Position numbers and translations under genes: made by a program. The notes under the pieces were generated by a model. It was not told where the DNA came from. It did no database searches and worked only from the letters and a program-made list of their open reading frames with translations. Source: Pseudocercospora fijiensis CIRAD86 (taxonomy: Eukaryota > Ascomycota > Dothideomycetes > Mycosphaerellales > Mycosphaerellaceae). From it: 64,000 nucleotides of DNA. Where the stretch lies: the NCBI RefSeq assembly GCF_000340215.1, contig NW_006921542.1, positions 431,610 to 495,609 on the forward strand, read 5' to 3'. Positions 10,178-64,000 of this stretch are shown here, in pieces (the first letter of the stretch is position 1; each line of letters begins with the position of its first letter).

Positions 10178-10205
10178 CTCGTAGTTAGACCCCGTAGTAG
10201 TTCGG
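10178..10205. repeat. Left target duplication and terminal inverted repeat of hAT
   Basis: The 8-bp duplication ctcgtagt (10178-10185) is followed by the 20-bp TIR tagaccccgtagtagttcgg (10186-10205). The same duplication follows the right TIR at 24838-24845. Confidence 0.93.
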
Positions 10206-10326
10206 TTTCCGAACTACTAAACGTATATAGTTTGGTTTCTTAGCGGCGAACTAGCTCCCTAGTTCCGGTTTGGTTTTTTCGAACTATATAGATTCCTAGT
10301 TTAAACTAGAGACTGTATTGGTTTTA

Positions 10327-10665
10327 CTATAAGGACACTCTTATTCGACTGCCGGCTACGATTGCCGGCTATAATAGTAACTCTATTACATTTACTACGC
10401 TCTTTTGCCGTTGCTAGGGCGTAGTTGCCGTTGCTAGGGCGTAGTTGCCGTTGCTAGGGCGTAGTTGCCGTTGCTAGAGCGTAGTTTTGCTACAAGGACA
10501 CTCTTATTCGACTGCCGGCTACGATTGCCGGCTATAATAGTTACTAGGTTGTATTTACTACGCTTTATTACCGTTGCTAGGGCGTAGTTGCCGTTACTAG
10601 GGCGTAGTTGCCGTTACTAGGGCGTAGTTGCTATTGCCGGGGCGTAGTTGCCGTAGTTACGAAAG
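10327..10665. repeat. Duplicated subterminal block with 19-bp tandem repeats
   Basis: Two consecutive copies of about 165-170 bp, each beginning with caaggacactcttattcgac (first copy mutated to taaggac...), then two GCCGGCTA motifs, then about four copies of a 19-bp repeat (gccgttgctagggcgtagt). hAT transposases bind short subterminal repeats in the elements where this is known; that these serve the same role is inference. Confidence 0.8.
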
Positions 10666-10825
10666 CTTACCTATATAACGTTACGTAGGCGGCAACAATT
10701 AGGGCTTCGCGATATTCTTACACTTTTAACTTCTTCCTCTATATCTATACCGATAATAACTACTATACGCTACGCCCCCGCCCCTTTCCCTTACAATAGT
10801 AAGAGAGAAGCGCGCCGCGCGCTAA

Positions 10826-12213
10826 ATAGAAGATAGAACTAAAGACCGCGAGTTTGTTTTACCTAAGCGTCTAACTAAAACGCGTAAGACTAAAGAGGAG
10901 TACTCTACGAAGAAGAATTCCGTACGAGACCGCGAGAGAAAGGACAAGATAGATAAGGATAAAAGAGCTAAGGATAAGAGAAGAAAGGCGCGGAATAAGG
11001 CATTCTATCGATAGCTAGCGCTTATAGAAAAAAGTAAAGGTTAGAATAAGAAGACAACCTAAGAGAAGGCTAAGAGGAGGAAAGAATTACGGCTAGTTTT
11101 CGAGCGTAAGGTTCTAGCAGCGTAAGTTAATCTAGCTAGCGGCCGTAGCTAGTAGCTATAGCCGGCAACCGTAGCCGGCAGCTATAGCCGGTATATTTTT
11201 CTTTAATACGTTAACTAATAGCATTTAGACCTATAGCCGCTACCTCTATCGATACGAGGGGTAGTAACGGAGATATTCAGATAGCCGAGAACAACAATGC
11301 TAGAGTTTAGGATGCCGCGATAGAGCTTAATACTACGAATAAAGGAACTGAAAAAAGCGAGGAGATACTATATATCGATCTAGTAACAGGTATAGTCTTA
11401 GGGCCTAACGCTATAGACGATAAGCGCTAGGAGTAGATCGAGTATAGTTAAAGAGACGAGATACTAGTAAAGGGCTAAGGTATAAGTCCTATCAATCTAG
11501 AAAATCATAGTTAAAGCTACTACGAAAAGCTAGCAAGGATTAGAATCGAGACTAGTCGTCTTTATATCCTCGATATAGAGTAGAAGTTTCTTTATTAGTA
11601 TTAGAGCGAAGCCTTTGCGTCTATAAAGGCAAAGTAGCTTGCGATTAATGCGATCGGGGCTAGGTATCTAGAGACAGTAGAAGTGTTACTATAGGAGGAA
11701 GGGATATAGGTAATTATTCTATACTCGGTATATATAGCCGGCGTTCGTAGCCGGCAGATACTAATAGTTAAATAGAAAGCGTTTCTCGAAGGTAGAGTGC
11801 TACTACTATATAAAATCTTTACTAAGGTAGAGAGGGCTTGTATCCGGAATCTAAGCTGCTAGTAGGATAGGTTAGCGTTAGAATTCTCTAAATCTCTATA
11901 TAAGCCTCCGAAGGATTACCTATTTCAGCGATACGGCTTTATCTCGACTACTCCGCAGGTACCCGAAGAAGCTCGAGCGCTCTTTAAGGTCTTTACTAAG
12001 AAGCGGAAGGAGTTCGAGGATTAGGATTAGTTAATAGAGCTATTAGTTAGTCTTAGGTTTCGTAGTTAGACTCGGCCTAAGCATTTGCTTGTCGAGTGTC
12101 TTATACCGAAAGAGGATAGATTAAGACTAAAAACGAGCTTAGATTCGTTAGGTATAGTAGCTCGGTTCCGTTAGTAGGAGAGAGCCGCCGTATAGAAGGC
12201 AAAATTCAGGTAG
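10826..12213 (+). pseudogene. Unknown basic protein of the hAT (ORF-A), three exons
   Basis: One frame runs through three exons joined by fungal-type introns at 11122-11228 (GTAAGT...TTAACTAATAGCATTTAG) and 11728-11775 (GTATAT...TACTAAT...TAG). The phases fit (exon 1 is 98 codons plus 2 nt, exon 2 ends in phase 0). Both introns contain GCCGGC repeats. Stops are nearly all at Gln/Trp positions. The first ~95 codons are very rich in Lys/Arg/Asp (many KDK and RRK runs), suggesting a nuclear or nucleic-acid-binding tail. The rest, about 350 residues, matches no family I recognise. The start is assigned to an ATA at 10826 that RIP could have made from ATG. The frame ends before a short tandem repeat at about 12208-12310. 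Confidence 0.55.
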
Positions 12214-12312
12214 TTAGGGTAGCTAGGAAAGAAATTCTAGTAGTTAGGCTAGCTAGGGTAGCTAGGAAAAAAAATCTAGTAGTTAGGTAGCTAGGAAACA
12301 AAAAAAAAAGGT
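12208..12312. repeat. Short tandem repeats between ORF-A and the transposase
   Basis: Two and a half imperfect copies of a unit of about 40 bp built from tagttaggtagctaggaaa and aattctag, ending in an A-rich tract (12301-12310). It probably lies in the spacer between the two genes. Confidence 0.7.
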
Positions 12313-12399
12313 AGCTAGCTATTTACTGCCTAGCTATTCCTAACGATACGATACTATAAAAGAAAGGGTATTTCCCTATAGCTACTAGTACACATCTAC

Positions 12400-15300
12400 T
12401 ACTCCTAAGTCCTTACCTTACCGTACGAAACCTTAAAACATACCGACCGACATTGTATATATACTAGGCGCTATACTAGGAAGGGTAATAACGAGACGAT
12501 AGTCGAAACAGTCTAGTATACGAGCGAGATTGCGATAACGTCGAGAGGAGGTCGCATACTTACCTTCGAGCCTATCGAGTCCTAGACGACGATTAGGGCT
12601 AGATTTATCCTCTCCGAATCCTAGTAGTAGGAATTCATTATAGGGTACTACTACCTAGTCCTTACCTTTACGGAGTCTAAGCAGAAGGTTGTTCGGAGAT
12701 ATAAGAACATCGAGTATTAACCCGGAAATCTTCGAAAAGGCTAGCTAGGCGTATCTTTAGAAACCCGAGTATATAGAGCAGTTCAATTAATAGGTCTATA
12801 AGATATAGTTCCCTTTATACTTACGTTCGAAGGAGTATAAACTCCGGAAGTACTCGATGCGATAGGGGAGTAAGGAGCGAACGGATATATTCTAGAAGTT
12901 CTTTATAGAGGGGGTATTGTACCGTTATACGACTTCTCGACTTAAAGGTTAACTAGTAATTGTCTGTAACTTCTACGGTTTAATCTTAAAACACCTGAAA
13001 CTAGGGGATAGGAACTTATCGCCTACGAACTATCTCTATTCTAAACGGTATCGGGAATCTTAAAGAGAGAGGAGAGTTAATATAGATACAGCGTTCTAGA
13101 AAGAGGTACGTCTTCTAAAATGCCGGCTATAGCTACCGGCTATAGCTACCGGCTATAGCTACCGGCTATAGCTGCCGGCTATAGCTGCCGGCTATAGCTG
13201 CCGGCTATAGCTGCCGGCTATAGCTGCCGGCTATAGCTGCCGGCTATAGCTGCCGGCTATAGATTCCGGCTACAGATTCCGGCTACTTAAATTAACCGTA
13301 GAGGTCTAGCTAATTATTATAGGCTACGCTTAAGGAAGCTCTAGGATTAAAGGCTACCGATTTCTCCTCCGAAGACTTTAAGCAACTAGCAAACGAAATG
13401 CTAGCTACAAACGGTCTTCCGGAAGACTTCTACGAAAGGGAGTCTATATAGAAGATATGCCTATATCTTATAAACTACCCTCCCCTATTTCTCGGCGCGA
13501 CAACCTAGCGTATTATATTCGAAAAGAATAAAGAGGCTGCGTTAGACGACATTCGGGAGATCCTCCGTAATACTCGCCGAGTAGCTATTGCTATTAATAG
13601 CTAGTTAAGCCGGACTGTAAGAGCCTCCTTCCTCTCGATTATACTATACTTTATTAATTCGGATTGGAAACTCTAGGAACTTATAATCGGATTCCCTAAA
13701 ATTCTAGGTTCCTATACTAGTAAGGATATAGCGAAGCTTGTCTATACGGCAATAGATAGGGTTAGCGTAACAACGAAACTAATCTCGATTACTACGGATA
13801 ACGCTAGTAATAATCGAACATTATATAAGGCGTTGTATATACAATTCACTCGTATATATCTTTGAAATTACTAATTGTATCGATAGGGTCGAGTACGTAG
13901 AGGAGATTATAAGGTCTACAATCTAGCTTAATCTTCCGAATATTAAGCTCGCTACGATTCCGGATACGCACGATAATACGCACGATAATAACGATAAAGA
14001 GGAGCCTATTAATAGCCCTAGCCCTAACGAATCGGAGCCGACGTCGTTACTAGTTATATCCCTATAGAAGTTTCCCTACCTCGCTTATATAGTTTAAATC
14101 GCGATCCGAGCCCTCTTTAAGACGCTTAAAATTACACTATTAAACGACGACTAATAGAAGATCCTAGATAAGGATAAAGCAAAGTCGAAAGTCGAGAAAC
14201 TTATTATAGCAATAAGACGGGATAAGGCAGAGAGCCTCGCTCTCGTTTTATATAAGGTATAACTTTTGTCCGTAGCCGGCACCTATAGCCGGTAACCTAG
14301 TATAGTTCTAACTCTTTTTCTCTAGCTTCGTCGTCTAGTAATATATACGAACTCGAGCTTATAGAGATATAACCGATTCGAGGCTATTTAAAAGAACCTA
14401 ATCGAGCGCCCTAAAACCGATGCCTAGAATATCGTATAGAATAAGCGATAGCAAAAGCGGCCTCCTTAGCGCCTACTCCGTTTTACCTAAGACGTTAAGA
14501 CCCGGTTCGATTCGACTTTCTATATAGTTACGAAGGGATATACTTTACGTACCGCTCTCGAGATCTATTAGAGTTCCGAGGGTATTAAGTAGCTCGGCCT
14601 TACCGCCGCCGAATAGCGCTAAGCAGAGTATCTCGTCGATATTAGTAAGTATTACGCGAAGGTTACTACTACGATTAGAAGAACCCGAGGACCGACGATC
14701 TACCTTATCTTTACGTACTATAACTAGCTCTTTAACGAGCTCGAGGAAACCGTAGCTAAGCTAGCTAAGAAGAGCGTTCCCTAGAAAGTAGCTATAACGA
14801 AAGCTATAGACACCTCCTATACTAAGTTGTATAAATATTATAGTGCTACCTTTAAGTCGTTCGGGGATATCTATAGCATTGCGTACTTGCTTAACCCGGT
14901 AGAAAAGGATATATACTAGTAGAGGCCGGAATAGAAGGCGGACGAGGTATAGCCGAAGCATTACTAGACTATTCTAGAAAAGATATTCTACGAGCGTCGG
15001 AAAGAAACTAGTCTAAATACAGCTCCTATAAAGAAAAAGAAGGTTTAGAAGGCTCCGATATTATATCTGTTTCGTAGGTAGGAAGTAGAGGTAGAAGAGG
15101 AAGCAACTACTAAAGTAAATAAAGAAGAGTTCGATCTCTATCGGTACGCGAGTAAGTATAAACCCGTAGGCTCGGAAAGAGGGCTAATAATCTCTAGATC
15201 TTACCAGTCTTTTAGACGAATTCGGAGACGATATTCTCGCTATATAGTAGCGGTTAGAGCCTAAGTTTCTAACGATAGCGTCGGTCGCTCGGGACGTCCT

Positions 15301-15650
15301 CGCTATCCCGAGCGTAGGTATAGGCTATAAGAGGTCTTTTAGTATCGCTCGTTACTAGGGCCGCTTTAATCGAATATACTCGCCTACTACCTTCGAATCT
15401 ATTATAGTATTCCGATACTATCTCCTCTACTAGAATCGCTAAGGTAGGTTACTAAAGATTATACTAAAGGAGTTAATCGAGGAATTAGAAAACCTTAAGA
15501 TCGAAGAAACCTAGGAGCGCGAAGAGAATACGAAATTTAGTCTAAGCGAAACCCTAATTAGCGATAACGAAGAGGAGGAGGGCGGAGGTAGAAGGCGATA
15601 CCGGGTCGAGAAGCGGAAATGTATATAGGCTTAGAGCAGCTTTAAGGAGA
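12400..15650 (+). pseudogene. hAT transposase, RIP-mutated, with introns
   Basis: It would catalyse cut-and-paste transposition of this element. A readable ITTDNASNN core (13789-13815), preceded by a WKL.ELIIGFP block (about 13660-13700), is the conserved hAT catalytic-region signature. The C-terminal dimerisation domain is clear at about 15250-15440: ARDVLAIPSVGIG, then SFSIARY and PTTFESI. Introns are inferred at about 13104-13305 (GTACGT...TTAACCGTAG, filled by a 13-bp GCCGGC array) and about 14258-14325 (GTATAA...TTCTAAC...CTAG, also with GCCGGC motifs). Many Gln and Trp codons are now stops, so the copy is dead. The 5' end of the coding region is not defined; no zinc finger could be made out. 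Confidence 0.85.
13123..13286. repeat. 13-bp GCCGGCTATAGCT tandem array in a transposase intron
   Basis: About twelve copies of gccggctatagct with minor variants (accggc..., attccggctac...). It sits between two parts of the hAT transposase frame, bounded by GTACGT (about 13104) and TTAACCGTAG (about 13305), so probably inside an intron. It is the largest of many occurrences of the same motif in this element. Confidence 0.93.
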
Positions 15651-15984
15651 CGAAGCGTTTACGTATAAAGTAATATAGCCGGCGTATATAGCCGGTATAT
15701 ATCCGAAATGTGTTTCGAATTCCTAGGACCTAAACAGACTAGTTGCTATAGTAACCGACCCCGCTTACCTACGGACTATTTCTAATTCTCTATTCGCTCT
15801 TCCTCTCCTTCTTCCCTTTCCCTATATTCTTAAAGACAAACATACCTTAAGGATTCGGCTCTTCGGGCCTTCCTAAGCCGGCTACCTCCCCTTCCTTAAG
15901 CTACTATCCTTTATTCGAATCTAACGATAACCTACTAAGGCGGTTTAATAGAAGACTATTTATTCTAGAAGGCAAGAAGCATTA

Positions 15985-16626
15985 ATGTCTCCTTACGATT
16001 ATATACTTATTAATTTTCTAGGTCCTACCGATATACCCTCGTCGCCTAAACGCGTAGATAAATATCTTTAGAGGCTAAAGGGCAAGGGTAAAGCAAGCTA
16101 AGTATAGGGAGACTATAGCGAGAACGAGATATCGGAAGAGTAAGGCTCTCCGTAGTATATACGAAGGAAGGGGGTTCCTCGGAAAACAGTACCGAAAAAC
16201 AAGAAGGCTATAGGTAGATAGGAGAAGGCTAAAAAGAGTAGGCGGACGAAGACTATCGCAAAGAAAAGTTATCTTTCTATTAAAAGAAAGGGAATAAGGT
16301 AGGACTCGACGATAAAGAAGCGGCGCTTCAAACTAGGTACTATTACCCTTCGCTAGATCCGGCTTTTCTAAAACAAAAGAGGGACCGAGCTTTTAATCCC
16401 TAAGACTCCCTTCTAGCGACTCGTCCGAGAAATTATATTAGATTTTCGGTCTAGTATACGATTTACGGCTAAGGCGATTAGTGCTCTTTAGGAAGCTACG
16501 GAGGCATTTCTCGTAACCGAGCTTAAGCTTTTAAACCTCCTTGCTATCTATACGAAGCGGGTTACTCTTTAAAATAAAGATATACAGCTTCTAGCTAAAA
16601 TTCGGCGTCGGTTTATAGCGGATTAG
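15985..16626 (+). pseudogene. Histone H3-fold protein, CENP-A-like, inside hAT (RIP-mutated)
   Basis: One frame of about 213 codons starts at an ATG (15985) and keeps phase throughout; internal stops are all TAG/TAA at positions where Gln or Trp would fit. Codons 1-112 form a long tail rich in Lys/Arg/Ser. From codon 113 (16321) the H3 fold can be read in order: KLGTITLR (helix N entry), then GTELLIPKTPF, RLVREI, DFRSSIRF, EATEAFLV, LLAIYTKRVTL and KDIQL. This matches the order and spacing of the H3/CENP-A fold. The long unrelated tail, EAFLV and LLIPK resemble CENP-A (Cse4/CenH3) more than replication H3. That is resemblance only; a tree is needed. The last TAG may itself be a mutated Trp. 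Nothing shows that it was ever centromeric. Confidence 0.8.
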
Positions 16627-17631
16627 TTAGAAATTGTATTTAGTCGTTAGATTAACCTAGGAGGAGGCCTATTTTCGTATCCTTTTGCCGGCTATAGGTA
16701 CCGGCTATATTTCTAATTTTATCTCCGCGCCGTCCCTAAATCTAAGGTACGAAGTAGAAACCTAGCGCTCTATATTTACCCGGCTATTATAGAGACGAGC
16801 TATATTTAGATTAGTTTCTTCGTATATCGCGACCTAGTAGGTAGTAAGCGAAAGGGCGATAGAACGTTTATAATACGTCTCTATTTAGACCTAAAACACA
16901 AAGGTCCTAAGGAGCCCTAGCATCCTAACTATAAGGAGATTCTTTAGTATTAGTACTTTAATCCTCTATACTGCGAGGTAGATAGTAAGCCTACGAGAGA
17001 GAAACTTTAACGAGAAATTCTCTATAATGCGTAGCGCTATTATATAGCTATAGATACGTACTAAGTCCGGCAACTCGAAGAAGAATTGAGATAGCGTATT
17101 AGCGACCGAGGAAGAGATCGATAGTATACTAGTAGAGTCGAGGTCTTATAAGCGAAGTATAAGATAATATAGGCTCTTAGTCGTATAGAGTAACGTACTA
17201 TATAAATAACTAGGCGTACTACTCTTATTCACTTACGACCTATATCCTAGGATACTCTTCTCGTACTTTTTATACTCTTTTCTAATACCTTACCTATAAG
17301 CGCTCCGCGACAACCGAGTGAATATAAGCTATAGGGTTTCCGCTCGGTACCTTAGCCTCCGAGATAGGGCGGAGTTGAATTTAGAGCGACAGCCGGCACT
17401 CGCAGCCGGCATACAGAGACGGTAGTAGGCCTTTTCCTACTAAATAACTAGCTTGTTTAGTATAGCCTACCTGATATTTCTTATATTTACTAGCAATAGG
17501 CCTAGGTTACTTATAAGATTACTATAGCTAGTAAAGTTATTACTAAAGAATACCTATACTATAGTAAGATACCATTATTACGCCGGCTATTTATTAAAAG
17601 GAGGCTTTCGCCTATTACTATGCCGGCTATA
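16627..17631. other. hAT internal region, no gene recognised
   Basis: GCCGGC motifs lie at 16685-16706, 17388-17412 and 17580-17640. The first may be in an intron starting GTATCC at about 16676, so an extra exon of the H3-fold gene or a separate gene could follow. A plus-strand frame with a Lys/Arg-rich stretch can be followed from about 16740 to 17180, but I recognise no domain. Confidence 0.4.
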
Positions 17632-17759
17632 TATACCGGCTAATAGTAGCGTTAATACCGATGCTACTATACTATTCGGCCTATATACGACAACCGTAGA
17701 AAATGGCAGCGAACAATTAGAGACGAAGGGAAGACAGTTAAGAAGGAAGGGAGGACGAA

Positions 17760-18960
17760 CAGAAAGCACTACACACTAGGGCAGAGGAGGTACCAAAGGC
17801 GGAAGATAGAAGAACCCCTAAGAGGGTATATAGGATAATAATCTTAGAACTCCTTAGAGGACTGAAAGCAATCTATAACCAGGCAAGCTACGTAATCACA
17901 AAGGTAGCTAATATAGTCGTAGCAAAGATTACGAAGAAACAATAGGAGACAAGCCTAAACTACCGCACCTAGGTAGCAGTAGCTAGTTAGGAGGCGCTAA
18001 AACCCCCGAGGATAGTAGTTAGAGTCTATATTACGGACCTATAGGAGCAAAAGGAAATCTAAGGACTTATAGGGAAAGAGATTGTAGAAAGAATTGTAGT
18101 TAAAGAGGTAATTAGGGCTAGGAACGAAGGTAAAGGGGTAATTAAGCTATTTATAGTACAAGAGTAGGACAAAAAGAAGCTAGAAATACAAAAAGAATAG
18201 ACAACTAAGATAGGGAAAACAGCAAAGGTCTCCTAATAGCAATTCATAATTATAGCCTATAGTATAATAAGAAGCTTTAAGGAAGAACAGGATATAAAGA
18301 GCCTATAGAGACAAAACTAAGCTATATGCCTAGGCCTAAAGATTACAAAAGTAGTATAGATTAAAAGGAAAATCGAAGAGACTAAGAAGCAGTCTTCTCT
18401 AATTATCTAGGTAGGGAGTGTAGAGTAAGCTAATATAGTGCTAGATTAGGGGCTGTTCTAGGACTTTAAAAGATTAGAAACAGAGATATATAGAAGCAAC
18501 TATAGGATAATGCAGTGCTTCAAATATTAACACTATAGACACTTTGTAGCTAAGTATATAAAGACAACTAACACCTGCTCCTATTATATAGGGGATTACT
18601 AGGTTAAAGAATGTAAAGCACACAAGGGAGAAGCAAGATATATATACTGTACTAAAAGACACCCCTCTTAGGCGAAGGAATGCCTAGTAAGAATATAGGC
18701 AGCTAGGAAGGCAAAGGAAGCCAGAATTAATATACTAAAAAGATATACAACAAGCTAGGGCAGCTAGGTATAGAAGCAACCTAGCTAAGTACTACAAAAG
18801 AGGTCTAGACAAGATAATAGGTTTACATTTAGGGCCTTACTAGTATAAGAGGGTTACTAGCAACTAGGGAGACTAAGATACCTTAACATTATAGGAAAGG
18901 AAGTAGGGCAGACAAAGCTTAGTTAAATATTAGTCTAAAGTAAGGGAAGACTAAAGGAAA
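17760..18960 (+). pseudogene. LINE ORF1 (gag-like, zinc knuckles)
   Basis: This is the RNA-binding protein of the LINE. A frame of about 400 codons ends in three CCHC-type knuckle remnants: CFKYQHYRHFVAKY (about 18512-18555; second Cys and last His changed), TCSYYIGDY followed by VKEC (about 18570-18615), and YCTKRHPS followed by AKEC (about 18646-18685). Losses fit TGT to TAT or CAC to TAC changes. Upstream lies an unrecognised Lys/Glu-rich region, as usual for ORF1 of this group. It is interrupted by RIP stops. Confidence 0.75.
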
Positions 18961-18974
18961 ACTTATAGGGAAAT

Positions 18975-21900
18975 AATATAGATAAAACCTAATAAACATT
19001 GCAACATTACTGAACATTATACAGTACAATATTAATAAGAGCAAGGACAAGGTATAGAGGAGCTTCCTTTAAGTACTAAACCTAAAAGAACATTATATTA
19101 TTGCAATCTAAGAGCCCTAGCTCAACCTATATATAAAGAGACTAGCAACAGTTAAAGACCTAAGATACTACCTAATTATCTACAACTAGGGAGCCCTAAG
19201 GACATACATCTATATTAGTAAGGAGATAGATACAGAAACCTAGTAGGCTATACTATAGGAGGATAGGGACCTAATATTAGTTTAAGTAGAGACATCCTAA
19301 GGTACACTCCAAGTCTACTGCATATATAACCTACTACTAGACTTAAGAAGCAGTACCCAACTGAAAACCCTAGAAAGACTACCTAGAGTTATCTAGGGGA
19401 ACACCTACTAAATCCTACTTAGGGATTTCAACCTCTACTACCCCCTCTAGGGCTTAGACTTTACCCTAGCTTACTACTTCCTAGTAGGAAGACTAATTAA
19501 CATATTAGAGAGGGAAGGAATAGAAATTGTTACCCTAAAGGGACTAATTACCTAGGAGGCAAGAGGGAGCAGCAGTATACTAGACCTATACTTTATATTA
19601 TATTAGATTAGGAATAGGATTATAAGATACAGGGTTAACTAGGAACTAGAAGAATTATTAGACTACTTCCCGGTGCAGATTAAGCTAAATGTCTAAGCCA
19701 ATTAGGAAAAGGAACTAGAGGAGAAGCTTAACTAGAAAGGTACCTAATAGGGTAGGATAAGGGAGGAACTAGAAAGGGACCTAAAACTAGAGGAACTCTT
19801 AACAAAGCACCTACTAAGGCTAGAGGACATTAACAAGGCAGTAGAAGAACTAATAGGAATCCTAAAACAGGTAGCTAGAAAGCATACCCTAGCAAAGAAA
19901 CATTTACTATACTAGTAACTATACTAGACTAGTAAATGTATAAGGAAGGTTAAAGTAGTAAGGAAGGCTAAGAGGTAGTAGACACAAACCTATACCTAGG
20001 AAGCATAGGACAACTATAATAAAGCCTACTAGGAAAAGAAGATCTAGATTAAGAAAGACAAGATATAAGAATAGAGATCTATAATAGGAATAATTACAAA
20101 GAAACTAGAGGAGATATAGAGGATAGCTAAATAGATAAGGAGACCTAAACAGGATAAGGATATACTACTACAATTCCCGGACATTATAGACTAATAAGGA
20201 TAGATGTAGACTACAATAGAAGGGAAAGTAAGAGCCCTAGGCTAACACTTCTTCTATAGAAAAGTATAAGTAGACCTATTAGACATAAAGGAAAAAGAAT
20301 AAAAGACTCTACTACTAGGCACACTAGGAGACACCTAGGTTAAACCCGAAACTATTGAAAGGATCCTAAAGAAAATTCTAGGCAACAAGGCACTAGGAGA
20401 AGACAAGATCTATAACAAACTTCTAAAAGTATATAGGAAGGGGCTAGCCCTAGCACTAGCTAATATCTTTTTACAAAGCCTAGCACTAGGACACTACCTA
20501 AGACTATTTAGGAAGTCCCTAATAGTAGTGCTAAGGAAGCCCTAGAAGGAAGACTATATATAGCTTAAGGCCTATAGACTAATAGCCCTACTTAATACAA
20601 TAGGCAAGGTACTAGAAAAAATTGTCGCTAAAAGGCTAATAGCCTTTACCGAGGAAAGGAATATCCTTCCTAAAGGCTAGATAGGAGGAAGAAAGAAGAG
20701 GTTAATACTAATAGCTATAGAACTAATTATAGAACAGATTAAGTATATCTAGCACTATAGTTAAAACTAGGTAGCAACCCTCCTCTCCCTTAATATCTTA
20801 GGAGCCTTTAATAATATCTCCTATAAAAGGCTCCTATATATACTTAAATAGAAAGCTATACTAAACTAGATAGTCTAATTCATCTAGTCCTTCCTATAGG
20901 AAAGATTAATACAGCTCATTCTAGGCAAATTCAAATCAGACCTAATACTAACTAAAAAGGGAATCCCCTAAGGATTAACACTCTCCCTAATCCTCTTCCT
21001 TATCTTTATAGCAGACCTACTCCTACTCCTAGAATTAAAAAACACATTAGTATTAGGGTTTGTAGATAATACAAACATCCTAGCCTAGTCTAAGACAATA
21101 GAAACTAACTGTAAGATCCTAGAAGAGAAGCACTAGGAGTATAAAAAATAGGTAAGGAGGTATAGAGCAAAATTCGCCCTAGAAAAGTACTAGCTTATCT
21201 ACTTTAGTAAGGCTAAATCAACCTATAATATAAAGCAATCAATTACTATCTAAGGCTTTGAAACCTAACTATTAGTAGAGCTTAGGGTACTAGGGATCTA
21301 GCTAGACCTAAAACTAAATTAGGGACTATAAGTAAAGAAGGCAAAGCAGAGGGCAGATGCTAATATGTAATCTATTAATAGGCTTACAGCCTCTATATAG
21401 GGGGCTACATTCGAGAAAGCTAAAGTTATATATAAAGCAATTGTCAAGCTAGCAATGCTATATAGAGCACAGATATAGACAGCCTAGGAGAAAACACTAA
21501 AGAGGATTAAGCAACCAGTTAGCAGGTCCTAAACCTAAAGCCTAAAGAAAATCCTAGGAGTATACAAAACTACACTAATAAGGGTAGTAGAAATGGAATT
21601 AGGGATCCTACTAGTTAAACAATACTTTAAGGGACTAAGACACTAATATACAGTAAAGATAATAGAATACCTAGCCCAATAGACTATCTAAAAGGCACTA
21701 GACAAGATAAAAGCCTAGTACATTAGGACTAGGAGGCGAGATAGACTACAAATAACTCCCTAGAAAGTCAAAGACCTAGAGTAATATAGAGTCTTAATAA
21801 GAGAAATGCTAGAGAAAGAGCTTTAGGGACTAAATATAAGGCTAAAGGAAGATAAGCTAAAGGGAGAGAAACAAAGCCTAGTAGAATCAATTGCTAAATA

Positions 21901-22450
21901 CCTATAGGAGCAGGAATAGAACAAAACACAAGTTAGACTAGGAACCCTAAAGGCACTAATCAAATTTGGTTAATATAACTACTAGCTCTATAAGGACCTA
22001 AACAGGGCCGAGGCAAGCCTAGCTATCTAAATCAGATCTAAATATATTAGGCTTAGATCTTACCTGTTTAGAAGAAACGTCTTAGGAATTGAAAGCAGGG
22101 CTTGCTAATATAGCTACTAATCTTAGAACCCTAAGTATATACTGCTAGTCTACCCTTAATAGTTAGAAGGCAGAAGTAATTAGAGACTAAAAGCAATAGA
22201 AAGGGAATACGATAAGCTAATCTAGAGTAAAGAAGACCTAAAGAGGATAGTAAAGTGGATTATTAAATAGGGATTTATACAACAATTCGCACTAGCAAGG
22301 GAAACTAAGGAGTAGATAAGAAGGAGGGAAGAAGAGGGGGAAAGAAGGATAGGGTAGTAGGCAAGGTAGTTAGAGGGTAACAACTATAATACTAGTATAC
22401 CCTAGAGGAAGGAAAACAAGGAAACGAGGAAGATTAGCACTTATAAATAG
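18975..22450 (+). pseudogene. LINE ORF2: endonuclease, reverse transcriptase, C-terminal zinc region
   Basis: This protein would nick target DNA and reverse-transcribe the LINE RNA. The apurinic-type endonuclease is visible as IIAI.EP (about 19092-19112) and a DFNLYYPLWG-like motif (about 19428-19460). Reverse transcriptase shows a KKGIP.GLTLSLILF block (about 20953-20995) and GFVDNTNILA (about 21056-21087), where the second Asp of the catalytic pair is now Asn by a G-to-A change. The C-terminal ESRAC..........NPKYILLVYP segment (about 22091-22155) is the Cys/His region typical of fungal Tad1-like ORF2. RIP stops and the lost catalytic Asp show that it cannot work. Confidence 0.82.
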
Positions 22451-22857
22451 GATAGGAGGGAGGTTTTTACTAACTAAGTTAGTTTCCTACCCGAAACAAT
22501 ACATAGAAACAGACCTACATAGGCCGAAAGGCACTACAACAGGCGAATGAAATATCTATCTATCTATCTATATACCGGCTATATTTTAAAGTCTCCCGTA
22601 CCTACCTTTTTTAGCCGTACCTACCTTTTTTAGCCGTACCTGCCTTCTTTCCTTGCTCTAACGTTACTATAATATAGGCTTGCGCGAAGCTTACTCTATT
22701 GCCTAGCGATACCGCGACACTACCGCTATATTTAACCTTTGCATCGATACCTATACCTCTACGCTCTATATCTACTACCTCCGTAACACCCTCGCTCTAC
22801 GCGCGCCTTCGTATACCTTCGTAACGTACTTTTTTCCTTAATTCGACGACTTTTACA

Positions 22858-23542
22858 ATAGCGAGTCTACTTAACTAAGTTACGACGCCTCGCAAGAAGG
22901 GACCTAGTGCTTCTACGGGTCGCAATAAGACCGGAAATAGTAGAACGAGTATAGTACATTAACGTAAGAGGGCTGCTACTACTACCGCTAGCTCCGGTGC
23001 TAGAAAGGGCGTCGCGAGTAAGGCTCCGCGCAAGACAACGGCGGGTAAGGCTCTACGTAAGACGACAACTAATGCTTCTACTACTAGTAGCAATCGTACG
23101 AAGCGTCGATAGCGCCTAGGAAGTAAGTCCTATTTATAGCCGGTAGCGTAGCCGGTAGCGTAGCCGGCAGCGTATGCGGTAGCGTAGCCGGCATTCTTAC
23201 TATCTTTTTACTATTCCTTCTTGAGCCGTAGCCCTCCGTTAGATTCGGCAGTATTAGAAGAGTTCTAAGCTCCTAATCCGTAAAGCTCCTTTCTAACGAC
23301 TTGTTCGCGAAATTGCCTAGGATTATAGAACGGACCTTCGCTTCTAAGCCTCCGCGATAGGCGCCCTTTAAGAGGCTATAGAAGCCTACCTAGTTCGTAT
23401 CTTCGAATGTATATTTCTCTTCTACCTCTTTTCGGACTATACTAATACTATTTTAGCGGTTAACCTTATAGCTATCTACGCGAAGCGTATAACGATTATA
23501 GACAAGGATTTTAAAGCACTCGATTAGATTCTAAAAGGCTAG
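22858..23542 (+). pseudogene. Histone H3-like gene inside hAT, three exons (RIP-mutated)
   Basis: Exons 22858-23122, 23226-23408 and 23457-23542 join in phase to about 177 codons. Intron 1 (23123-23225, GTAAGT...TTCTTGAG) holds GCCGGC repeats; intron 2 (23409-23456) has TACTAAT and ends TTTTAG. The tail has H3-like runs, SKAPRKTT and AGKALRKTT. The fold then follows in order: GTVALR across the first splice junction, QYQKSSKLLIRKAPF, RLVREIA, DYRTDLRF, ASAIGAL, EAIEAYLVRIFE, then NLIAIYAKRITI and DKDFKAL after intron 2. It is much closer to canonical H3 than the 15985 gene. Stops fall at Gln/Trp positions only, and the start is an ATA in place of ATG. The tail is longer than the usual H3 tail. 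An inverted copy lies at 63099-63771. Confidence 0.88.
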
Positions 23543-23767
23543 AATATCTACATTCGAGACGGTGCTAGGTAGGATAGATGTTCTAGTAGAAAGGATGTTC
23601 GTAGTGTTATCTATAAGCTTTTCTATATACGAAATAAGCCGCTGTTATACGGCGCTATATACCGCGCTGTAAATACTCTCTAAGTATATATATATAGTAT
23701 AGTATACTTTATTAGCCGTACGGAATAGAAGTCTCCTAAAATCCCGTTAGTACTAAGGAGTAAAAAG

Positions 23768-23822
23768 GCCGGCTACGCTGCCGGCTACGCTGCCGGCTAC
23801 GCTACTAGCTACGCTACTAGGT
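23768..23822. repeat. 12-bp GCCGGCTACGCT repeats between the convergent hAT genes
   Basis: Four to five units of gccggctacgct, the last two mutated to actagctacgct. It lies between the H3-like gene and the convergent small ORF. The inverted copy has a matching array at about 62836-62875. Confidence 0.88.
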
Positions 23823-23879
23823 TTCTCAAAGAACTAAAAGAAGATAGATATTCCGGTTGATTTGTATTAGTTTAGATTT

Positions 23880-24405
23880 TTATAAAAAGAAAACAGGGAA
23901 AAATAAGGAAGGTTAAAGAGCCTAATAGTTATAGTTATAGGTACTATCCCTGTTTCTAGAGCATATTATACACCTGCCTTCGCAACTCTACCTAATACTC
24001 CCTCTAAATATCCTTATACTCTACCTACTAGAAATTCAACTAGGTACCTAGACCTGCAGCTGCCTCTATATCTTTCACTATCTTCTATAGGTTAAAGGCC
24101 TCTTCTATAGCAGCCTCTACCTCCTTATACAATACGAAGTTACTACCTACCCTACCCTTTATATCTCCTAAATAACTAAGAGTTCTAAGGAACGAACTAG
24201 CATTCGGCCTTAGTATAGCGAGTAACTAGTAGAACGTTCTATAGAGCTGCCTTATAGCTCTTTTATATACTATACCGATACCGAGGGAGGAGCTATCCTA
24301 GTACTTAATATTGTCGAATAGTTCGGTAGGAAAGTGTATAAACTTCTTAAGGAGGAGGACTTCTAGGGAAATCGATAAGTTCTACCTAGATCTAGATAAA
24401 GACAT
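23880..24405 (-). pseudogene. Conserved small hAT ORF of unknown function (ORF-X), copy 1
   Basis: A minus-strand ATG (24403-24405) opens a frame of about 155-175 codons, beginning MSLSRSR and containing SSLGIGIVYKRAIRQLYR, a LLAILRPNASSFLRTL block and FVLYKEVEAAIEEAF. The copy at 62249-62773 shares frame and most residues while differing at several places by codon changes and one in-frame codon indel. This suggests protein-level constraint before RIP. Near the 3' end this copy has lost a base relative to the other, shifting the last ~20 codons. Length, helical look and lack of known motifs do not reveal a function. It runs convergent to the H3-like gene. Confidence 0.6.
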
Positions 24406-24631
24406 TCTACTAAGCAGTTAGGGAATTGAACCGTAAACGAAAGGATAAAATTCATACCTAAGGAGTGCAGTTTCCGAACTAAACTATAATGCCTTGTATA
24501 TATATATGTATGCTTTTGATTGGTTAGTGCCCTTAGCTAATTGTCTATAGATTTGAGGTCATATAAGTACCTTTATACAACTACGTAGCCTAAGTAGGAT
24601 TCGAAAATTCCATAAGTACTAAGGACTAAAA

Positions 24632-24845
24632 ATGCCGGCTACGCTGCCGGCTACACTGCTAAGTCTTACAAAGGGCTTGCTTAAAGCTACGTATACATTT
24701 GTACACTTCTTAAAAACCGATAAATTATATAGTTCGAACTAGCTACTTATATAGTTGCTTAGCAAACCAACCCAAACCAAACTAGAGTTTCGGCTTAGCA
24801 AACTAAACCAAACCAACCCGAACTACTACGGGGTCTACTCGTAGT
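24632..24845. repeat. Right subterminal repeats, TIR and target duplication of hAT
   Basis: GCCGGCTACGCT units lie at 24632-24660. Two copies of the block ttagcaaac(c/t)aa..ccaaaccaa(ccc) lie at about 24758-24782 and 24795-24818. The 20-bp TIR (24818-24837) and the 8-bp duplication ctcgtagt (24838-24845) follow. The last 25 bp before the TIR is also present in the MITE at 3060-3432. Confidence 0.88.
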
Positions 24846-61810: not shown

Positions 61811-62248
61811 GTTTAAATTGGACCCCGTAGTAGTTCGGGTTAGTTTAGTTTGGTTTACTAAGCCGAAACTCTAGTTTAGTTTAGGTTGGTTTGCTAAGCA
61901 ACTATATAAGTAGCTAGTTCGAACCATATAATTTATCGGTTTTTAAGAAGTGTACGAATGTATACGTGGCTTCAAGCAAGCCCTTTATAAGACTTAGCAG
62001 TGTAGCCGGCAGCGTAGCCGGCATTTTTAGTCCTTAGTACTTATAGAATTTTCGAATCCTACTTAGGCTACGTAGTTGTATAAAGGTACTTATATAACCT
62101 CAAATCTATAGACAATTAGCTAAGGGCACTAACTAATCAAAAGTATATACATATATATAAGGCATTATAGTTTAGTTCGGAAACTGTACTCCTTAGGTAT
62201 AAATTTTATCCTTTCGTTTACGGTTCAATTCCCTAACTGCTTAGTAGA

Positions 62249-62773
62249 ATGTCTTTATCTAGATCTAGGTAGAACTTATCGATTTCCGTCGAAGCTCTCT
62301 TTAAGAAGTTCTAGCACTTTCCTACTAAACTATACTCTAATATTAAGTACTAGGATAGCTCCTCCCTCGATATTAGTACTATATACGAAACAGCTATAAG
62401 GTAGCTCTATAGGGCGTTCTACTAGTTACTCGCTATACTACGGCCGAATGCTAGTTCGTTCCTTAGAACCCTAGGTTATTTAGCAGATATTAAGGATAGG
62501 GTAGGCAGTGACTTCGTATTATATAAGGAAGTAGAGGCTGCTATAGAGGAGTCCTTTAACCTATAGAAGATAGTAAAAGATATAGAGGCAGCTATAAGTC
62601 TAGGTACCTAGTTAAATTTCTAGTAGGTAGAGTATAAGGATATTTAGTAGGAGTATTAGGTAGAGTTGCGAAAGCAGGTATATAATATAGTCTAGAGAAC
62701 AGGGATAATGCCTATAACTATAAGTATTAGGTTCTTTAATCTTCCTCCTTTTTTCCTTATTTTCTTTTTATAA
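62249..62773 (+). pseudogene. Small hAT ORF (ORF-X), copy 2
   Basis: ATG at 62249, TAA at 62771-62773, 174 codons in one phase with only Gln/Trp-type TAGs inside. It begins MSLSRSR and shares LLAILRPNASSFLRTL and FVLYKEVEAAIEE with copy 1. The C-terminal segment is hydrophobic (FFNLPPFFLIFFL), which copy 1 has lost through a frameshift. Unknown function. Confidence 0.6.
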
Positions 62774-63098
62774 AAATCCAAACTAATACAAATTAACTAG
62801 AATGTCTATCTTCTTTTAGTTCTTTGTAAGACCTAGCAGCGTAGCCGGTAGCGTAGCCGGTAGCGTAGTCGGCCTTTTTACTCCTAAGCACTAACGGGTT
62901 TTTCGAAGACTTCTATTCTATACGGCTAATAAAGTATACTATACTATATAGGTATGCTTAGAGAGTATTTAAAGCGCGGTATATAGCGCCGTATAACAGC
63001 GGCTTATTTCGTATATAGAAAAGCTTATAGACGATACTACGAACATCCTTCCTACTAGTATATCTATCCTATCTAGCACTATCTCAAATGTAGACATT

Positions 63099-63771
63099 CT
63101 AGCCTTTTAGAATCTAATCGAGTGCTTTGAAATCCTTGTCTATAATCGTTATACGCTTCGCGTAGATAGCTATAAGGTTGACCGCTAAAATAGTATTAGT
63201 ATAGTCCGAAAAGAGGTAGAAGAGAAATATATATTCGAAGATACGAACTAGGTAGGCTTCTATAGCCTCTTAAAGGGCGCCTATCGTAGGGGCTTAGAAG
63301 CGAAGGTCCGTTCTATAATCCTAGGCAATTTCGCGAATAAGTCGTTAGAAAGGAGCTTTGCGGATTAGGAGCTTAGAACTCTTCTAATACTACCGAATCT
63401 TACGGAGGGCTACGGCTAAAGAAGGATTAGTAAAAAGATAGTAAGAATACCGGCTACGCTACCGGCTACGCTACCGGCTACGCTACCGGCTACAAATAGG
63501 ACTTACTTCCTAGGCGCTATTAACGCTTTATACGATTGCTACTAGTAGTAGAAGCGCTAGTTGTCGTCTTACGTAGAGCCTTATCCGCCGTTATCTTACG
63601 CGGAGCCTTGCTCGCGACGCCCTTTCTAGTACCGGAGCTAGCGGTAGTAGTAGTAGCCCTCTTGCGTTAATATACTAGACTCTTTCTATTATTTCCGATC
63701 TTATTACGACCCGTAGAAGTAGCAGGTCCCTTCTTGCGAGGCGTCGTAACTTAGTTAAGTAGACTCGCTAT
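63099..63771 (-). pseudogene. Histone H3-like gene of hAT, copy 2
   Basis: The reverse complement of the 22858-23542 gene with the same three-exon layout. It is 12 bp shorter, matching one fewer GCCGGC unit in intron 1 (about 63448-63497). The tail and fold are recognisable but RIP-mutated, and the start codon is again ATA. The window ends 229 bp upstream of the start, so the promoter is only partly visible. Confidence 0.85.
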
Positions 63772-64000
63772 TATAAAAGTCGTCGAATTAAGGAAAAAAG
63801 TGCGTTACGAAGGTATATAAAGGCGCGCGCGGAGCGAGGGTATTACGGAGGTAGTAGATATAGAGCGTAGAGGTATAGGTATCGATACGAAGGTTGAAGA
63901 TAGCGAGAGAGGTAGTATCGCGGTATCGCTAGGCAATAGAGTAAGTTTCGCGCAAGCCTATATTATAGTAACGTTAGAGTAAGGAAAGAAGGCAGGTATA

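Follow-up and report, generated by a model that had tools for sequence, protein, structure and literature searches.

The window analyzed here, a 64,000-nucleotide stretch of Pseudocercospora fijiensis DNA, contains a hAT-type transposon that carries two histone H3-like genes, H3-A and H3-B. With slightly better than even confidence, we read it as a RIP-killed member of a published family whose two H3 variants were separately derived, owned by the element and kept by selection, likeliest for nucleosomes on or near element DNA. The H3-carrying hAT itself is already known. Our additions to the published account are (i) two apparent H3 lineages, (ii) predicted introns in one of them and (iii) evidence that reading frames were kept.

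Anatomy of the element

The element spans positions 10186–24837 (plus strand; ~9.7 kb without a nested LINE). The 20-bp terminal inverted repeats (TIRs) and the perfect 8-bp target-site duplication (TSD) that the initial annotation had placed around an H3 gene are both exact: the TIRs (TAGACCCCGTAGTAGTTCGG; 10186–10205, plus strand, and 24818–24837, minus strand) are identical at the two ends, and the TSD (CTCGTAGT) is the same on the left (10178–10185) and on the right (24838–24845). An 8-bp TSD and short TIRs are features of the hAT superfamily, and the window element has both; a perfect 8-bp TSD was found in three elements, the window copy and the loci L039 and L040. A broken hAT transposase region lies at approximately 13300–15650 (plus strand), its limits inferred, and a dimerization motif was read by eye at ~15250–15370. 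A Pfam search of the frames in the window itself turned up no transposase domain, Dimer_Tnp_hAT (PF05699) included. PF05699 did match at one place in each of three subfamily-2 copies, L040, L041 and L042, at E 0.055–0.16, below the Pfam cut-off. The hAT identity proposed by the initial annotation thus holds by TIRs and TSD and is weaker by profile, where the matches come from other copies only.

A LINE, assigned by eye and not part of the initial annotation, is nested at approximately 17643–22569 (plus strand), with a CTAT-rich tail and a duplication of ~13 bp (TATATACCGGCTA). It separates H3-A from H3-B, which in this copy lie 6 kb apart with H3-A upstream; in other copies the two genes are adjacent. 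Pieces related to the LINE occur at 2–433 and 1122–2122. Short GCCGGCTA-type repeats are scattered through the element (10300–10660, 13120–13290, 23140–23180 and 23760–23815) and occur in the first intron of H3-B too. A tRNA-like sequence near 24.4 kb was ruled out, as ARAGORN gave no match in the window. At its far end the window cuts a second, inverted copy of the element (61821–64000, minus strand), which holds H3-B and is 91% identical to the first copy across 2.2 kb.

Relation to published H3-carrying hATs

By its anatomy, the window element is shown to belong to the P. fijiensis hAT family with H3-like sequences described by Dhillon et al. in 2019 (PMC6710886). The available text of that paper gives 471 elements with 784 H3-like copies, all reported as RIP-inactivated, and describes elements of ~9.5 kb with a 20-bp TIR, an 8-bp TSD and one or two H3-like sequences. 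The window's family is alike in its 20-bp TIR, 8-bp TSD, length of ~9.5–9.9 kb, two H3-like sequences and RIP bias. Our 772 first-look histone candidates stand beside the 784 copies counted there, and the stop-free host H3 on contig 6 beside the original H3 on scaffold 6. The same text reports DUF659 for the family and a dimerization domain as not found, whereas we obtained the weak PF05699 matches in three subfamily-2 copies. The element is therefore in print, but it is read there as an accidental passenger: introns are reported absent, from which the available text concludes that a transcript or retrocopy was captured, once, ~100 million years ago, its copies then becoming pseudogenes. According to this explanation, the hAT took up a host transcript or retrocopy of H3, doubled it and carried it unused until RIP killed it; the published single capture and pseudogenization speak for this.

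A hAT with an H3-like gene (H3L) was also described in Pyrenophora tritici-repentis by Manning et al. in 2013 (PMC3538342). As far as the available text goes, that element is alike in having its H3-like gene between TIRs; it differs in its 5.6-kb and 2.3-kb forms, its one H3L gene and central ORF, its reported ESTs and its low level of RIP. Dhillon et al. looked for similarity between the P. fijiensis and Pyrenophora hAT sequences and found none. Beyond these two papers, nothing else relevant was found in the literature, as judged by title and the start of the abstract. The initial annotation had known of no hAT that carries core histones, which the two papers put out of date. The rest of its overall picture, a hAT-type element that owns H3 genes, one of them with introns, stands.

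H3-B is predicted to have two introns

The three-exon H3 gene that had been annotated at 22858–23542 was confirmed. On the plus strand, H3-B consists of exon 1 (22858–23122), which encodes the tail; intron 1 (23123–23225; GTAAGT..GAG); exon 2 (23226–23408), where the histone core starts; intron 2 (23409–23456, 48 nt; GTATAT..TACTAAT..TTTTAG); and exon 3 (23457 to ~23542, its end uncertain). Predicted splicing of both introns, with stops read through, yields a continuous H3 core from GTVALR to AKRITI, and the profile search that had been proposed as a check gave a histone match in exon 2 (PF00125, E 2.4e-20). The start codon reads ATA in this copy, and the spliced translation contains 11 stop codons. 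The second H3 copy annotated at 63099–63771 is present in the inverted element, running from 63771 down to ~63099 on the minus strand, with 13 stops in the same stretch. To call the gene near-canonical was an overstatement: its relatives are mostly canonical fungal H3, mostly at 55–66% identity over ~70% of the query (among the 120 of 1,233 matches listed). The lysine-rich tail repeats in exon 1 vary between copies, L041 and L048 having 15 and 30 bp more than L040.

Intron 1 is 69–116 nt long in six copies, and its length changes are non-triplet. By eye, it splits the Thr codon of GTVALR in phase 1, and the host H3 intron splits the Gly codon preceding that Thr, in phase 1 too. The 48-nt segment has a TACTAAT-type branch site followed by TTTTAG. 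Of the copies examined, only the first one in the window has a GT donor; the nine others (the second window copy, L039–L044, L047 and L048) have AT, which is what RIP would give. Without the 48 nt, H3-B reads IFE-SVNLIAIYAKR against LFEDTNLCAIHAKR in the host. The available text of PMC6710886 describes a 16-amino-acid insertion in the second H3 copy; this is our 48-nt segment with intron signals, and a second intron is seen here. Intron signals in the 48 nt, together with that second intron one codon from the host H3 intron, make H3-B unlike a spliced retrocopy, which would lack the two intron-like segments predicted here. The intron reading alters the published capture model, and introns with splice signals, the first with non-triplet length changes, argue against an H3 that was merely carried along.

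H3-A is an intronless H3-like gene

The second H3, absent from the initial annotation, lies at 16159–16626 (plus strand; PF00125, E 1.4e-23). H3-A is intronless, which fits capture of a transcript or retrocopy. Its inferred start codon reads ATA, and eight stop codons fall within 16165–16635, the last of which (16624–16626) may be the true stop. Among the 120 of 147 matches listed, from which 23 of the 147 were retrieved as sequences, the closest relative is P0001 (47% identity), an intact 164-amino-acid protein from a 1,189-bp metagenome contig. Both have a two-residue insertion preceding LLIPK and end in AKxRRRF, and VPRK is equidistant from the (inferred) start in both. One scan of viral contigs for relatives of P0001 gave 9 stretches that matched the pattern, none of which was confirmed. 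A profile search (A2), in which the 7,990 candidates sharing most words were scored, returned mostly longer H3 and CENP-A-like proteins.

AlphaFold2, given the read-through H3-A and 16 relatives, predicted helices at residues 59–71, 80–94, 102–129 and 137–156, with pLDDT 86–89 per ten-residue block over residues 81–150, a mean pLDDT of 70.9 and pTM 0.45. In Foldseek the model matched nucleosomal H3 in the PDB (best E 6e-8; TM ~0.5 by query length). H3-A is thus modeled with the four helices of the H3 fold, a result to be expected from the 40–48% identity to H3s in the alignment. PF00125 matches, H3 homology and the predicted fold of H3-A all point to the histone H3 core.

The two genes look separately derived

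A tree was built from 32 hand-chosen rows (8 element sequences, host H3 and 23 database proteins). H3-A was placed with P0001 (support 90/96, not starred), and H3-B branched from among canonical H3. A joint clade of H3-A and H3-B was rejected (AU p 0.025), which counts against a host copy captured once and doubled inside the hAT; because of long branches and RIP-biased letters, this evidence on ancestry is moderate. A single capture followed by duplication is accordingly disfavored at that p value, AU being open to long-branch and RIP-composition bias. H3-A shares some residues that we take to be CENP-A-like. A CENP-A origin was rejected, as both genes fall outside the group formed by P0015, which its source labels centromeric, and P0021, P0037 and P0086, its three neighbors in the tree; this comparison was made among the tree's rows, leaving out the host gene L049. 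From these sequences, H3-A (intronless, a lineage of its own) and H3-B (two introns, nearer canonical H3) look separately derived. The captured transcript in the available text of PMC6710886 differs from the two H3 lineages suggested here.

Copies across the genome are decayed and carry both genes

The genome searched comprises 73.94 Mb in 30 contigs. Among the 150 histone matches scored out of the 772 first-look candidates, only two were stop-free, the host H3 on contig 6 and L049, which we read as host CENP-A. All element H3 copies scored were broken, as expected of unused cargo. The TpA/ApT ratio was 1.88 and 2.08 in two parts of the first element versus 0.53 at the host H3 locus, and both window copies are RIP-mutated.

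We fetched 29 other element loci, the best-scoring of 40 scored from 627 first-look candidates. Of the 29, 28 run on from H3-B to the side of H3-A, and 26 extend as far as its inferred start. This bears out the earlier claim that the H3 sequence belongs to the element and is no chance insertion. In the main family, L039 is complete (9,562 bp), with both H3 genes between its TIRs and a perfect TSD (AAAGTTAC). L040, of subfamily 2, is also complete (8,599 bp; ~80% identity to L039), has a perfect TSD (GAAGTAAA) and holds both H3 genes between the same TIRs as L039. A third subfamily (L043, L044), 82–88% identical to L039, has both genes as well.

Three further structural features were seen. The subfamily-2 copies L040, L041 and L042 lack ~906 bp that the main family has (~23742–24648). 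The stretch 17017–17378 is tandemly duplicated in L002, L004, L006, L007 and L008. A 383-bp MITE-like derivative with H3-hAT-type TIRs, an 8-bp TSD (GATCGAGG) and no H3 sits in exon 3 of H3-B in the subfamily-2 element L041 (L041:1118–1500).

Selection on the H3 reading frames

RIP makes transitions, and we therefore used indels and transversions. Indel counts in frames were limited to the inferred genes, so that a 3-bp indel that precedes the inferred start of H3-A falls outside them. Between L039 and L040, 4 of 4 indels in the H3 frames were triplets versus 16 of 55 outside them (p 0.011); the corresponding counts were 4/4 versus 8/23 elsewhere for L039 and L043 (p 0.028) and 4/4 versus 9/31 for L043 and L040 (p 0.014). 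In all three subfamily pairs the triplet indels lie in the H3 tails, and the tests are not independent because the pairs share branches. Two single decayed copies depart from the pattern: in L047, H3-A contains an indel of 1 bp (triplets 4/5 versus 3/18, p 0.017), and in L041, H3-B is interrupted by a nested insert of 391 bp (5/6 versus 16/36, p 0.09). Indels that are nearly triplet-only in the frames speak against passive carriage.

Codon-level tests are mixed. In the H3-B core, the nonsynonymous-to-synonymous transversion ratio between the main family and subfamily 2 was 0.32–0.39 (p 0.002–0.03), favoring synonymous changes; it was 0.68 and 0.90 (not significant) between the main family and subfamily 3, and 0.52–0.61 (p 0.07–0.15) between subfamilies 3 and 2. 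The H3-A core gave 0.74–3.15 on 6–11 changes, with no excess of synonymous transversions and too few changes to inform; it also had fewer transversions (11/301) than an upstream stretch (22/206; p 0.003). Neither the H3-A tail (0.30–1.07) nor the H3-B tail (0.71–2.94) gave a significant ratio. In H3-B, transversions between subfamilies were more frequent in exons 2–3 (33/321) than in the introns (1/138; p 7e-5), a possible hint of mosaic recombination. Purifying selection did not reach significance in the codon tests of H3-A or of the H3-B tail, a result that suits an element that carried its histones idly. The indel pattern supports the reading that selection maintained the H3 frames as the subfamilies diverged, and the frames may have been selected before mutation destroyed the examined copies.

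Only one gene may have been selected, the other being a decaying passenger; the synonymous excess in the H3-B core and, in H3-A, low overall divergence with no such excess would fit this, but triplet indels were kept in both frames across subfamilies, and we consider the case improbable. The reading we prefer is that selection kept both.

Discussion

The preferred reading, of two element-owned H3 variants kept by selection, would work as follows. While the element was active, H3-A and H3-B would have been element genes making H3 variants. Their likeliest use would have been to enter nucleosomes at or close to the element's DNA, which could thereby have become easier to express or mobilize, or harder to silence. 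Packaging, marking or target choice by an element histone, as the initial annotation envisaged, is speculation.

Among the alternatives, passive transduplication as published fares best. Given the introns of H3-B, the separate placement of the two genes and the indels, on the one hand, and the broken copies, the intronless H3-A and the codon tests, on the other, it is possible but on the doubtful side. It is very improbable that the H3-like genes act as sequence and not as protein, whether by pairing with host H3 through homology and so bringing RNA silencing or RIP upon that gene, or as a decoy. The available text of PMC6710886 discusses both RIP signatures that host H3 may bear and regulation of an original gene by extra transcripts, which would suit such a role, but the 51–55% identity of element H3 to the host H3 coding sequence given there is low for pairing, and frame-keeping indels indicate a protein.

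Selection on both genes could be taken further. In the strongest form, a transposon lineage would own two dedicated, separately acquired H3 variants, translated and long relied on against silencing by host chromatin or for its own chromatin, with the H3-hATs of distant fungi representing a recurring strategy instead of chance captures; this we think rather unlikely.

Rice Pack-MULEs are likewise DNA transposons with pieces of host genes, some reported under purifying selection; they differ in belonging to another superfamily and in carrying pieces of many genes, not one kept gene type. If the H3 genes of the P. fijiensis family are selected element genes, the family would be a case of a DNA transposon in a eukaryote supplying core histones of its own. 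One could then test directly whether a transposon changes the chromatin of its host by means of its own nucleosomes.
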